The translations under genes and the position numbers were made by a program. 64,000 nucleotides of DNA. Source: Mesonia profundi. GTDB taxonomy: Bacteria > Bacteroidota > Bacteroidia > Flavobacteriales > Flavobacteriaceae. The notes under the pieces are model-generated. The model worked only from the letters and a program-made list of their open reading frames with translations, was not told where the DNA came from and did no database searches. Positions 2,141 to 6,726 of the stretch are shown here, piece by piece (position 1 is the first letter of the stretch; the number at the start of each line of letters is the position of its first letter). The DNA is taken from assembly GCF_031085155.1 (NCBI RefSeq), contig NZ_JAVHUL010000001.1:144563-208562 (forward strand). Reading direction: 5' to 3'.

Positions 2141-2556
2141 AACAAACAGGCTTAAAAATTAAATTTCAAAAGTAAAATTAACCGGAAAGAGCAGACGAAA
2201 CAATACCCAATTTTAGGTATATTAAGCATTAGAGAACAAGTAATTTAATCAGCTTTAACCAAGTCATAAGTTCAACTAACCGAGTTGATTTTAATCCTTC
2301 TAGAGGGTTTAGCCCAGCTTTGCCGTTTGGCAAGCTATGTCGAAGTAAAACGAATTTTTTTTGAGGATTTAACCGAAAATCGCTAAGTCACTAGGGTCAT
2401 TTTTCTTCAATGTTATTTCTTTCATAATTTTTAAGAACAGCTTTTCAGCGAAGCTTGAAAGCTAGGGATTTATGCGTAATCGAGGAGTATTTCCTTTTAT
2501 TTGGAAATAAACCTAATTAAAGTTGGAATATATCCAGATATTAATTAGTTTTGAGT
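2141..2556. other. Intergenic region between divergent LRR and S24 repressor genes
   Basis: About 415 bp without a convincing gene on either strand. It holds the 23-bp element at 2201-2223. The stretch around 2290-2360 is locally richer in GC (CCCAGCTTTGCCGTTTGGC) but gives no open frame or clean hairpin. I see nothing else to annotate. Confidence 0.5.
2201..2223. promoter_or_regulatory. 23-bp element containing imperfect palindrome ACCCAATTTTAGGT (copy 1)
   Basis: This element lies 60 bp upstream of the LRR gene that starts at 2140. The same 23 bases, with one C/T change, occur at 40124-40146 upstream of the second LRR gene. The core is a near-perfect inverted repeat, as expected of a dimeric regulator's operator. 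No regulator can be named from the sequence. Confidence 0.45.
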
Positions 2557-3324
2557 ATGGAACTACCACTAGAAATACGTCGATTTAAAGAAATTAGGGA
2601 AGAACAAGGTCAGACTCAAGCAGAGTTTGCCGAATTATTAAAGATAAAAACCTCTACGTCTGACATTGAACGCGGCCGTACCAAACTCAGTGGAGTAGTG
2701 GTGACCGAGCTGCTGAAGCAATTTGGAATCAATCCGCTTTGGTTATTTGGAGAGAGCAATCAGAAAATCTTACCCTTACATAGGATAGACACCATGCCCA
2801 AGGTAATTACCCTCGATTCTGAAGAGCAAGAAAATATTGTGATGGTGAATCAAAAAGCGGCAGCAGGATATCCACACAATGTGCAAGATGTAGAATGGTA
2901 TAGGCAATTACCAGCATTCGATTTGCCTTTACCGCAGTTCCGAAATGCTACTTATCGCGGTTTTCAAATTGAAGGTGATAGTATGTTGCCTAATTTTAGG
3001 CCAGAAGAATGGGTGTTGGCGAAAGCCGTTCCTAGTTTATCTGATGCTAGTGATCATAAAGTGTATGTAGTGGTAATGTACGATACGGTTGTGGTGAAAA
3101 AATTACACAAACTCAACGATCCTAGTAAAGTGAAGTTGGTTTCTTTTAATACCGAATATCAGCCTTTTGAAGTAGAGGTGTCAGAGATTCAAGAGCTGTG
3201 GCAAGTCAATTCAAAACTGACGTTCAATTTAGATGCGAGTTCAGAAAGCGGAATTCTACGGGAACTCCAAGAATCTATGCTCGATTTAAAACGCCAATTG
3301 GGAGAAATGCGCAAGCAGGCTTAA
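2557..3324 (+). CDS. LexA/CI-like transcriptional regulator: XRE helix-turn-helix plus S24 peptidase domain
   Basis: A 255-residue regulator. An XRE-type HTH occupies about residues 5-60 ('TQAEFAELLKIKTSTSDIERGRTKL'). The S24 domain shows the self-cleavage site Ala103-Gly104 within AAAGYP, the nucleophile Ser142 (GDSMLP) and a catalytic Lys at 181/182 (VVVKKL), about 40 residues later as in LexA and CI. All parts needed for RecA-stimulated autocleavage are therefore present, suggesting a repressor released by DNA damage or stress. A TTG two codons upstream (2551) could also start the frame; I chose the ATG at 2557. The gene ends tail-to-tail with the hydrolase remnant, the stop codons overlapping by two bases. 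Its target is unknown; the adjacent mobile-element debris may be what it once controlled. Confidence 0.85.
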   Translation: MELPLEIRRFKEIREEQGQTQAEFAELLKIKTSTSDIERGRTKLSGVVVTELLKQFGINPLWLFGESNQKILPLHRIDTMPKVITLDSEEQENIVMVNQKAAAGYPHNVQDVEWYRQLPAFDLPLPQFRNATYRGFQIEGDSMLPNFRPEEWVLAKAVPSLSDASDHKVYVVVMYDTVVVKKLHKLNDPSKVKLVSFNTEYQPFEVEVSEIQELWQVNSKLTFNLDASSESGILRELQESMLDLKRQLGEMRKQA

Positions 3325-4401: not shown

Positions 4402-4512
4402 GGGTCTTCGACAGGCTCAGGCTGACACCCGTTTTCAAAATTGACTATCTTTAGAAAAGGATTTGATTGAGTGAAATTGCTACTTAAAAGTAATTTTGTC
4501 ACGCTGAGCTTG
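4402..4512. repeat. 111-bp direct repeat, copy A (REP doublet)
   Basis: Matches 5007-5117 at 109 of 111 positions. The unit begins with CTTCGACAGGCTCAG and, in the complete copy B, ends with its approximate reverse complement (CTGAGCTTGTCGAAG), so two REP-like palindromic ends face each other around an AT-rich core. In copy A the right end is cut after CTGAGCTTG and runs into another left end at 4523. Confidence 0.9.
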
Positions 4513-4522
4513 ATAAGAAAGA

Positions 4523-4574
4523 GGTCTTCGACAGGCTCAGACTGACATTTGTTTCCTGAATTGGCTATCTTTAT
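4523..4574. repeat. Diverged third copy of the REP-doublet left half
   Basis: Starts with the same GTCTTCGACAGGCTCAGACT and continues with recognisable but mutated core (GAATTGGCTATCTTTA against AATTGACTATCTTTA in copies A and B). It follows copy A after only 10 bases, giving a head-to-tail arrangement. Confidence 0.75.
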
Positions 4575-4618
4575 ACTTGAAATTTTCAAACCTTAAAGGA
4601 TGTCAATCGAAACCCATA

Positions 4619-4667
4619 CTGTCATACTGAGCCTAGCCTGTCCTGAGTTTACCGAAGGATCGAAGTG
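4619..4667. repeat. Degenerate REP-like sequence
   Basis: Contains GTCATACTGAGCCTAGCCTG and then CGAAGGATCGAAG, a scrambled version of the right-hand REP end GTCACGCTGAGCTTGTCGAAG. It lies 40 bp upstream of the GIY-YIG gene. Confidence 0.5.
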
Positions 4668-4706
4668 CAAGTGCTATTTGAAGTCGAAATGCTTTAATTA
4701 AAAAAA

Positions 4707-4958
4707 ATGAAATTCTATTTTACTTACATATTATTATGTGTTGATAATAGCTATTATACAGGAATGACTAACGATCTTGATCGAAGAATGACGGAACATC
4801 AAGGAGGAAAAAAGAAAAGTTGCTATACCTATAAAAAGCGGCCTTTAAAATTAGTCTGGTATATTCAATGCACCAATCCTTCAGAAGCTATAAAAATTGA
4901 AAAACAGATTAAAGGCTGGACCAGAAGAAAAAAGAAAGCCCTAATCGATGAAAAGTGA
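4707..4958 (+). CDS. Small GIY-YIG endonuclease (UPF0213-like), probably frameshifted near its end
   Basis: 83 residues covering the GIY-YIG core: first strand 'YFTYILLC' (the GIY position), 'YYTGMTNDLDRR' (the YIG position with the conserved Arg), His in 'TEHQGG', and the catalytic Glu in 'IKIEKQIKGWTRRKKKALI'. These stand-alone domains are single-strand or structure-specific nucleases; their cellular role in Bacteroidota is not settled. After the TGA at 4956 another frame continues naturally with 'DDLVKFSKNYTEYGKPGSSTGSD', running straight into repeat copy B, so the original protein was probably about 20 residues longer and ended inside the repeat. The gene sits between the two 111-bp repeats and may belong to the same mobile unit. 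Confidence 0.8.
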   Translation: MKFYFTYILLCVDNSYYTGMTNDLDRRMTEHQGGKKKSCYTYKKRPLKLVWYIQCTNPSEAIKIEKQIKGWTRRKKKALIDEK

Positions 4959-5006
4959 GACGATTTGGTTAAATTTTCTAAAAATTATACTGAATATGGT
5001 AAGCCT

Positions 5007-5125
5007 GGGTCTTCGACAGGCTCAGACTGACACCCGTTTTCAAAATTGACTATCTTTAGAAAAGAATTTGATTGAGTGAAATTGCTACTTAAAAGTAATT
5101 TTGTCACGCTGAGCTTGTCGAAGCG
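5007..5125. repeat. REP doublet, copy B (complete, inverted ends)
   Basis: The unit runs from GTCTTCGACAGGCTCAG to CTGAGCTTGTCGAAGC. Its 22-base ends are inverted repeats differing at three positions, so the single strand can fold into one long hairpin. Copy A lies 605 bp to the left, on the other side of the GIY-YIG gene. In size and layout it resembles the REPIN elements known from other bacteria. Confidence 0.85.
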
Positions 5126-5271: not shown

Positions 5272-6726
5272 CTATTTCCTATTCAAAATATTGGCTTTCT
5301 TGATAAAAGCCCGATTTTTTGCGTAATCATCTTTAGTGAAAAGGCTAATGCCTACATATAGAACTAGCGAAATGGAAATTCCAATCAAGGCTTGTTTGGT
5401 AGAGGCAATTTCCCAAGCTACGGGTAAATCGGCACCTAAAGCGACCATTAAGTTGTAGGATGAAAACAGCAATCCGAAAAACATAGAAATACTAGCCGCC
5501 GTGGAGGTTCCGCGAACCCACAGAAAGCCGAAAATTAAGGGGATAAAAGCACCACTGGTTAGAAAATCTGATCCTAACCAAGAGATGGTGAGTACCGATT
5601 GTATTTTTAAGGCAATAAACAAGGCTGCACCCCCAATAATAAAGGTGGAAATTCTCCCTACATTCACTTGACGAGTATCACTGGCGTTGGGATTGATGTA
5701 TTTTTGATACACATCTACCGTTAAGGAAAGCGCACCGGTATTCACCAAAGAATCCATGGTAGACATGATGGCAGAACTTAAGCCCACAAATAAAATCGCG
5801 CTAATGATAGGGCTTTTATAATTGCTTAAAATATGGGGAACGATTCCGCTTTCGGGCACGCTGTCATAAAATACTGAAGAAAACATCCCCGTATAAGTAA
5901 CCATAAGGTAAAGCGGAATGAAGGCGAAGAAACTAAAGAGCATCATTTTCTTAGCGTCACTAGCCTTTTTTGCAGCCGAAATGCGCTGCCAAATATTGGC
6001 TTGGATCATCCACGAAGTTCCGAAGGTGATCACGTAGGCTAGATTATCTGATACCTGATTAAAAAAGGAAGTATAACCTGGTTTGTTATTGGTTTCGGCT
6101 ATTTTTTTCACGGCTTCCCATCCGCCAGACCGATCGTAGGTAATGTAAAACAAAAAGATTGCGGTAAACAAGAAGAATATAAATTGAAGAAAATCGGTAA
6201 GGACTACACCTTTAAATCCGCCGAAGAGCGAATATACCAGTACGATAACGGTACCTAAAAGCGCTCCAGCTTCATAGCTCATATCAAAATAAGCTTTAAA
6301 GAATTTTGCCACAACAATAACTTGAATGGAAGCGGCAATCACCATAAAAATAATGATAAAGATGGTGAGTAACAAGGCAGTGGTGTCATTATAGCGCTGC
6401 CGCATAAGCTGAGGTTGGGAAATGCTCCTTATATTCCGAATTCCGCCAGCAAATAAATACATCAATCCTGTAGCGATAAGTACTGGAACTCCGTAAATCC
6501 AAAAAGAACTAAGTCCGTTTTGATGAGCGTGATCTACTAAATCTATCGCTGAACCGCCACCCCACCAAGAAGCAATAAAAGTGATGGCTAACAACCAGGC
6601 GGGCAATTTTCGAGAACCTAAGAAGTAATCTTCACTCGTATTGCTTTTTCGGTTCCAAATACCCACGCCAATAATGACTATGATGTAAAGTACTAAAAAA
6701 ACAATGGTAAGCGTAGTGTTGGACAT
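5272..6726 (-). CDS. Sodium:solute symporter (SSS family)
   Basis: 484 residues, of normal length for the family, with about thirteen hydrophobic segments beginning 'TIVFLVLYIIVIIGVGIW'. Family marks include 'NTSEDYFLGSRKLPAWLLAITFIASWWGGGSA' in the first helices, split here as NTSEDYFLGSRK then ASWWGGGSAID, and the segment 'FGGFKGVVLTDFLQFIFFL' in the middle. SSS proteins import a sugar, amino acid, vitamin or similar solute together with Na+; the substrate cannot be read from the sequence. It is transcribed alone, leftward, with a TATATTTG -7 box about 130 bp upstream (6855-6862). No metabolic neighbour points to a substrate. Confidence 0.9.
   Translation of the reverse strand: MSNTTLTIVFLVLYIIVIIGVGIWNRKSNTSEDYFLGSRKLPAWLLAITFIASWWGGGSAIDLVDHAHQNGLSSFWIYGVPVLIATGLMYLFAGGIRNIRSISQPQLMRQRYNDTTALLLTIFIIIFMVIAASIQVIVVAKFFKAYFDMSYEAGALLGTVIVLVYSLFGGFKGVVLTDFLQFIFFLFTAIFLFYITYDRSGGWEAVKKIAETNNKPGYTSFFNQVSDNLAYVITFGTSWMIQANIWQRISAAKKASDAKKMMLFSFFAFIPLYLMVTYTGMFSSVFYDSVPESGIVPHILSNYKSPIISAILFVGLSSAIMSTMDSLVNTGALSLTVDVYQKYINPNASDTRQVNVGRISTFIIGGAALFIALKIQSVLTISWLGSDFLTSGAFIPLIFGFLWVRGTSTAASISMFFGLLFSSYNLMVALGADLPVAWEIASTKQALIGISISLVLYVGISLFTKDDYAKNRAFIKKANILNRK

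Follow-up and report, generated by a model that had tools for sequence, protein, structure and literature searches.

Small GIY-YIG nuclease genes between TGTC- and CGTC-tagged REP hairpins: a candidate counterpart of the RAYT/REP pair

Why does a small nuclease gene of Mesonia profundi lie between two almost identical repeats, and do gene and repeats belong together? In the window, the 64,000-nucleotide stretch analysed here, an 83-residue GIY-YIG gene is bracketed by two 111-bp repeats, as an earlier note on this DNA had described. We recovered the same arrangement: the two copies, the right one spanning 5007-5117, agree at 109 of 111 positions (98%) and start 605 bp apart (Table 1). In each, an AT-rich core separates a forward REP, which ends in TGACA, from a reverse REP that begins with TGTCA. 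A partial third copy matches the other two at 77 and 81% over 62 nt, and 118 nt of the right doublet fold into one long hairpin in a DNA model (z -3.72). The exact 15-mer CTTCGACAGGCTCAG occurs three times in the 3.08-Mb genome, each time at this locus, and the 299 bp from 4402 match only themselves and the right copy in the genome (E ≤ 0.001); a looser REP pattern gave 36 matches in the genome compared with 5 for a reversed control. No empty site matching the window insertion was found in the genomes of the genus, where the matches of the two flanks fall apart. Upstream of the module, the gene at 2551-3324 encodes HTH and Peptidase S24 domains and is repressor-like.

Table 1. Features of the nuclease gene and its repeats (window positions)
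Feature	Position	Strand	Remarks
Left 111-bp REP doublet	4402-4512		Forward REP CTTCGACAGGCTCAGGCTGACA at 4406-4427 and decayed reverse REP at 4497-4517
Second forward REP CTTCGACAGGCTCAGACTGACA	4526-4547	+	Within the partial third copy, 4523-4584
Decayed reverse REP (TGTCATACTGAGCC...)	4620-4665	-	By eye, unscored
GIY-YIG (UPF0213-type) nuclease gene, 83 aa	4707-4958	+	Ends at an in-frame TGA
C-terminal tail remnant DDLVKFSKNYTEYGKP	4959-5030	+	Extends into the right repeat, where the TGA of the TGACA tag supplies its stop
Right REP doublet	5007-5125		Forward REP CTTCGACAGGCTCAGACTGACA at 5011-5032 and reverse REP TGTCACGCTGAGCTTGTCGAAGCG at 5102-5125

In the GIY-YIG domain a tyrosine, an arginine and a glutamate are catalytic, and the window protein carries Tyr7, Tyr17, Gly19, Arg27, His31 and Glu65, all of which are 98-100% conserved in an alignment of up to 182 rows. 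Its reading frame scores 70.8 bits against the Pfam GIY-YIG profile PF01541 (cut-off 22.6) and matches the PDB entries 1zg2 at 6e-13 and 1ywl at 3e-11; the profile match and the conserved Tyr, Arg and Glu together place it in the GIY-YIG superfamily. According to the earlier note, the frame runs straight into the right-hand repeat, ending in SSTGSD, once a frameshift is undone. The run into the repeat stands, whereas the frameshift is ruled out: frame 0 is broken by an in-frame TGA at 4956-4958 (..ALIDEK*DDLVKFSKNYTEYGKPGSSTGSD*), past which it reads DDLVKFSKNYTEYGKPGSSTGSD and ends at the TGA at 5028-5030, inside the TGACA tag. A homologue from the genus has Trp at the position of the TGA (L187, DNA read by eye), and the closest relative among the matches listed (L042, 77% identity) has the C-terminus FSKNYKEFGKPK. 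The window copy has thus lost its last ~20 residues and may now be inactive.

The genome has six GIY-YIG matches. Two are in long frames of 611 and 453 residues and, judged by length, are probably UvrC and an exonuclease fusion; the remaining four, the window gene among them, are in short frames. Palindromes, each different in sequence, also adjoin the three short genes other than that of the window (partly by eye); one has TCTCGACTCCGCTCGA-type doublets alongside, and another adjoins a hairpin with a duplicated tRNA-like end. At the third, L005/L116 (G000:C52, ~5856-6056), the GIY-YIG gene lies, by eye, at the start of an epimerase-like gene, with a ~78-bp duplication of the start of that gene and a large hairpin in its flanks.

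Matches to the window protein were found in 87 of 149 genomes, with up to seven per genome among the matches listed. We collected 100 neighbourhoods, comprising 99 places among the matches listed and one from the GIY-YIG matches of the window's own genome. A TGTC-tagged REP of one of six classes, A to F, lay within 500 bp at 76 of these 100 loci and at 36 of 554 shifted controls; none of the six classes was found near the other 24. The TTCGAC-type motif lay within 600 bp at 33 neighbourhoods. Its matches numbered 55 and 44 in two adjacent 500-bp bins, or 1.11 and 0.61 per kb, the length of the second bin counting the gene itself, and 26 in ~843 kb of the far zone from 500 to 5,000 bp. A test free of any motif was run on 94 loci, the six with cut flanks being left out; here a direct repeat of at least 14 nt was shared by both flanks at 53 loci (7 of 537 shifted controls) and an inverted flank repeat at 38 (1 of 537). 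The shifted controls exclude a chance association. A coincidence of another kind would be that repeats and small genes, both intergenic, merely share a need for noncoding DNA. This explanation, whose probability we put at practically nil, is ruled out by the 12.5-fold enrichment that persists when noncoding DNA alone is counted (5.11 vs 0.41 per kb; 180 loci, two duplicates among them), and REP class moreover follows the protein, as described below. The enrichment around such nuclease genes that the earlier note had proposed to measure is thus present. The tag of the nearest repeat tends to point off the gene, with 69 reverse and 35 forward on the left and 76 forward and 31 reverse on the right (178 loci after removal of duplicates, 59 of them without a motif within 400 bp).

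Two further arrangements were seen among these genes. Tandem GIY-YIG genes of equal match score, spaced by ~0.5 to 1 kb, occur at G013:C15 (L050), G108:C1 (L099) and G311:C18. Small GIY-YIG genes of a distinct clade are found close to tRNA genes (L117 at G000:C29, L120, L133 and L139, near Arg, Pro, Asn and Pro tRNA genes, respectively); the direct repeats in their flanks resemble tRNA pieces, as if these genes inserted at tRNA genes.

REP class tracks the nuclease and not the genome, a rule that is valid above ~67% protein identity and fails below. The classes were defined on the same 100 loci, which makes the class tree and the best-match comparison in-sample tests, and labels were used for 74 loci, the other 26 having none or a tie. 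On a tree of the 100 proteins, more than half of whose forks are unresolved, the 74 labels change 10 times, compared with a minimum of 5 and a mean of 44.0 for shuffled labels, and none of 200 shuffles came as low. Counted per class, there is one change each for C, E and F, two for D, five for A and seven for B. The best match in another genome carried the same class at 68 of the 74 loci, and at 33 of 35 for mixed-class genomes, whereas just 1 of 25 pairs agreed when both loci sat in one mixed genome. Between different genomes, the class was common to 92% of 223 pairs at 70-80% identity, 45% of 662 at 60-70%, 16% of 1920 at 50-60% and 11% of 1339 at 40-50%, the base rate being 21%. Out of sample, 4 of 30 loci were excluded as their genomes were in the training set and 24 of the 26 remaining new loci had a class; the nearest neighbour predicted it correctly for 13 of the 24, namely for 9 of 10 at 67% identity or above and 4 of 14 below. 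Since prediction is good among close relatives and lost with divergence, these results point to co-divergence rather than to a fixed code: the pairing of nuclease and REP is tight in near relatives and turns over with distance.

The stems of the REPs covary, so that the hairpin is conserved as a hairpin. In distinct copies, bases on the tag side pair with the opposite end in 33 of 35 cases for class A, 42 of 48 for B, 36 of 42 for C, 102 of 108 for D, 84 of 88 for E and 52 of 75 for F, with 4 to 9 pair types per class. The corresponding maxima in shuffles were 14, 20, 21, 58, 53 and 29, a comparison that overstates significance because the REP copies are related. When folded with a DNA model, class F and CGTC hairpins were clear (z -4.05 to -4.87) and class D was weak (-1.75), and single hairpins of classes A, B, C and E showed no stability (z -0.66 to +0.21). 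Sheared G-A pairs in the inner stem might explain the poor scores of classes A to E.

Repeat numbers across whole genomes also go with the gene. In 149 genomes, almost all one per genus, the median number of TTCGAC-type repeats was 16 with a close GIY-YIG match (at least 10 in 38 of 56), 3 with weak matches only (8 of 31) and 1 with no match (4 of 62), a difference with p 3e-14 across the three groups when kinship is ignored. The means of the reversed-pattern control were 1.89, 0.90 and 1.37, respectively, and the control also climbs slightly with close GIY-YIG genes (Spearman 0.24). Plentiful repeats in genomes lacking the gene, which had been named beforehand as the observation that would tell against a link, are therefore seen in just these 4 of 62.

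These counts bear on the proposal that Y1 (RAYT/TnpA-REP) transposases spread the REPs and that the GIY-YIG genes are bystanders. The layout is like that of REPINs, and in the 59 of 149 genomes with Y1_Tnp the repeats are somewhat more numerous (medians 6 vs 3, p 0.008). However, among genomes without a GIY-YIG match the median is 1 both with Y1 (19 genomes) and without it (43), and the TTCGAC-type motif lay within 600 bp at 1 of 25 Y1/RAYT-like loci (25 of 31 loci were scanned, for this motif only, the six left out being cut). In the window's own genome there are four Y1_Tnp matches, none of them inside the window, and the TCGA-CTC-TGACA motif is absent at all four. PMC3733652 likewise reports no tyrosine transposase gene with flanking CGTC REPs. 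A RAYT as mobiliser of the TTCGAC-type repeat was rejected on these results, despite the weak genome-wide rise with Y1_Tnp, and we consider the bystander explanation very improbable. The Y1 loci have repeats of their own: direct flank repeats of 14 nt or more at 6 of 25 and inverted ones at 3 of 25. Two Y1_Tnp loci from the same family, L168 and L170, have palindromes of their own, CCACGGTTGAAACCGTGG and GACCCCAGCGGGGTC, as RAYT/REP pairs would.

The search for empty sites in sister strains, another check proposed for this locus, yielded gene-less alleles in the window's genus, Azospirillum, Shinella and Sphingobium, but in the last three the flanks are too diverged to fix insertion ends or a target-site duplication. 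At one intergenic site in the window's genus, gene and REPs are present in G153 and G160 (partly in G159), the REPs stand alone in the window's genome, G155 has two other REPs, and in G156 and G161 none was seen by eye. Three members of the genus compared by synteny had few repeats and no clean empty REP junction; at one orthologous position G153 carries a class C REP where G160 carries a different palindrome. In A. lipoferum 4B, a doublet-gene-doublet lies between sufB and sufC of the Azospirillum suf operon, and the same gap lacks both gene and CGTC hairpin in A. oryzae, A. ramasamyi, A. thermophilum and Azospirillum sp. B510, the last of which has a different palindrome there. Shinella has the gene with REPs in WSC3 and HZN7, and S. 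sumterensis and S. zoogloeoides are without the gene. In Sphingobium, the gap between fnrL and a response-regulator gene contains REP-gene-REP in three strains read, and the gene of TYG73 is one base short; the gene is missing from TYG64 and TYG74, each with one double-tagged REP, from TYG65, which has an untagged hairpin, and from TYG72, which has no REP either. Four further strains match 99% of the query at this site. This lone REP may mark an insertion site, or a deletion between the ACCCCGGG arms may have left it as a scar.

The first of these two possibilities is how an insertion site would appear under the main rival explanation, in which REPs spread by a different enzyme are invaded by the nuclease gene, acting as a homing-type parasite; the position of the genes between REP arms would fit this too. 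We nevertheless consider it unlikely. Repeats are all but missing from genomes that lack the gene (median 1, n=62, near the reversed-control mean of 1.37), which counts against it, as does the way in which REP class follows the protein within genomes. Y1 genes, moreover, lack the flanking TTCGAC-type repeat, and other transposase classes have only fortuitous links, few in number, to CGTC REPs in PMC3733652.

Some GIY-YIG copies carry internal stops. Such copies, presence or absence between sister strains and the patchy spread over 87 of 149 genomes, with up to seven copies among the matches listed, resemble a mobile element. They argue against a domesticated nuclease that trims or resolves REP cruciforms for the host and has the adjacent repeats as its own target or control sites, a role that we find quite improbable even though the catalytic residues are conserved and GIY-YIG enzymes elsewhere cleave branched DNA.

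The association extends to other phyla and to plasmids. Named genomes were scanned with an alignment of class E and F proteins, and the best 80 of 570 loci were kept, 74 of them with full flanks. Within this best-80 set, GTCATTC occurred at least twice at 39 of 74 loci (13 of 397 controls), and YGTCAT at least twice at 53 of 54 loci from Bacteroidota (38 of 293 controls) and 16 of 20 from outside Bacteroidota (15 of 90 controls). YGTCAT-positive groups were Calditrichota, Bacillota, Melainabacteria, Planctomycetota, Thermotogota, Verrucomicrobiota, Woesebacteria and Komeilibacteria, with one to five loci each, and the sole locus from Elusimicrobiota was negative. On plasmids, sampled as 13 of 34 records, CGTC- or TGTC-tagged hairpins lay within 700 bp at 8 of 13 GIY-YIG homologues, and none lay within that distance at the five from S. 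meliloti, R. tumorigenes, Planktothrix, Sphingomonas and Spirosoma. Tagged hairpins numbered 26 in ~18 kb near the genes vs 29 in ~86 kb far from them, 12 of the far ones in one record. Hairpins stood on both sides of the gene at seven plasmid loci, at six of which the nearest two tags point outward, and in A. lipoferum there is a doublet on either side. On plasmid p1 of Planktothrix agardhii (L326), the GIY-YIG gene lies between a type IIL restriction-modification gene and the DISARM gene drmA.

We think it fairly probable that gene and repeats belong to a single mobile module, which parallels the RAYT/REP pair with a GIY-YIG enzyme and spreads both its cognate hairpin and itself. The module accommodates the local enrichment in several phyla, the co-divergence, the stem covariation and the presence and absence of gene and REPs at orthologous sites; cleavage and movement of the REPs by the nuclease are what we infer from the sequences. 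Each nuclease lineage would have a cognate REP, consisting of an unpaired TGTC (or CGTC) tag beside a short hairpin. The enzyme would recognise its own hairpin when this is exposed in single-stranded or cruciform DNA, and might nick at or near the tag. Enzymes of the GIY-YIG type cut DNA by hydrolysis and are not known to stay covalently linked to it, so that host repair would probably do the copying to new sites, as it does in homing. REP singlets and doublets would then be non-autonomous copies and REP-gene-REP the autonomous one.

As the repeats change with the nuclease in many bacteria, one of the two great REP families may have found in it the enzyme that it lacked for its spread. It seems to us an evenly balanced proposition that GIY-YIG proteins fill this gap for the entire TGTC/CGTC superfamily, mobilising its repeats across Bacteroidota, Proteobacteria and several other phyla by a hydrolytic, repair-dependent route unlike that of Y1 or DDE enzymes; if it is true, Rickettsia palindromic elements would share an origin with these REPs. 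REPs are widespread bacterial repeats, and a REP with a dedicated enzyme is a known arrangement; an enzyme of another fold would be new, and the pairing would surprise a specialist. If the module is real, bacteria would have a transposition-like system on a nuclease fold that is not known for such a role in them, and many genes labelled only 'GIY-YIG nuclease family protein' would gain a function. A cognate nuclease would also make testable the origin of the CGTC superfamily, which in PMC3733652 is without an enzyme.

Several known systems resemble the module in part. The window protein matches single-domain GIY-YIG proteins of the UPF0213 type (1zg2 and 1ywl), which the PDB labels hypothetical; the output of the PDB search shows no link to repeats. 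GIY-YIG homing endonucleases, which occur in introns, have the same catalytic domain, and spread by cutting would be a parallel; in contrast, no intron was seen here, 83 residues leave little space for a second domain, and the genes are flanked by REPs. In RAYT systems, the gene is flanked by cognate REPs and repeat and enzyme co-diverge. The REPIN/RAYT (TnpA-REP) pair thus shares with the module the tagged hairpins, the inverted doublets, the gene between cognate repeats and the co-divergence of repeat and enzyme, but the enzyme here is a GIY-YIG nuclease instead of a Y1 HUH transposase and the tag is TGTC/CGTC instead of GTAG. Among the open-licence PMC papers listed (subscription papers and preprints lie outside this set), titles and abstract starts revealed none that links GIY-YIG genes with REPs; PMC6006769 has Y1 enzymes as its subject, and 'GIY' is absent from it.

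The closest comparison is with the REPs of PMC3733652 (2013), in whose text 'GIY' has no occurrence. The paper sorts most REPs into two superfamilies, of which the CGTC one is apparently without a dedicated transposase. It describes an unpaired CGTC tag (TGTC in many repeats), a hairpin stem and dimers, in Alphaproteobacteria and Bacteroidetes, and Rickettsia palindromic elements that terminate in the same tag. In the repeats here an A-T pair opens the stem that follows the unpaired CGTC/TGTC tag, except in N. aromaticivorans L320, whose stem begins with G. The stem of 8-9 bp and loop of 4-5 nt of the CGTC superfamily fit all eight positive plasmid loci and class F, whereas classes A to E differ, by eye, in their tails and in stems that are long or contain mismatches, and the repeats of N. 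aromaticivorans and Sphingobium end otherwise than in its CCA tail. Like the CGTC REPs, those here do not flank tyrosine transposases, as seen for the TTCGAC type only. Moreover, A. lipoferum and N. aromaticivorans, both named in PMC3733652, have GIY-YIG genes between such hairpins.
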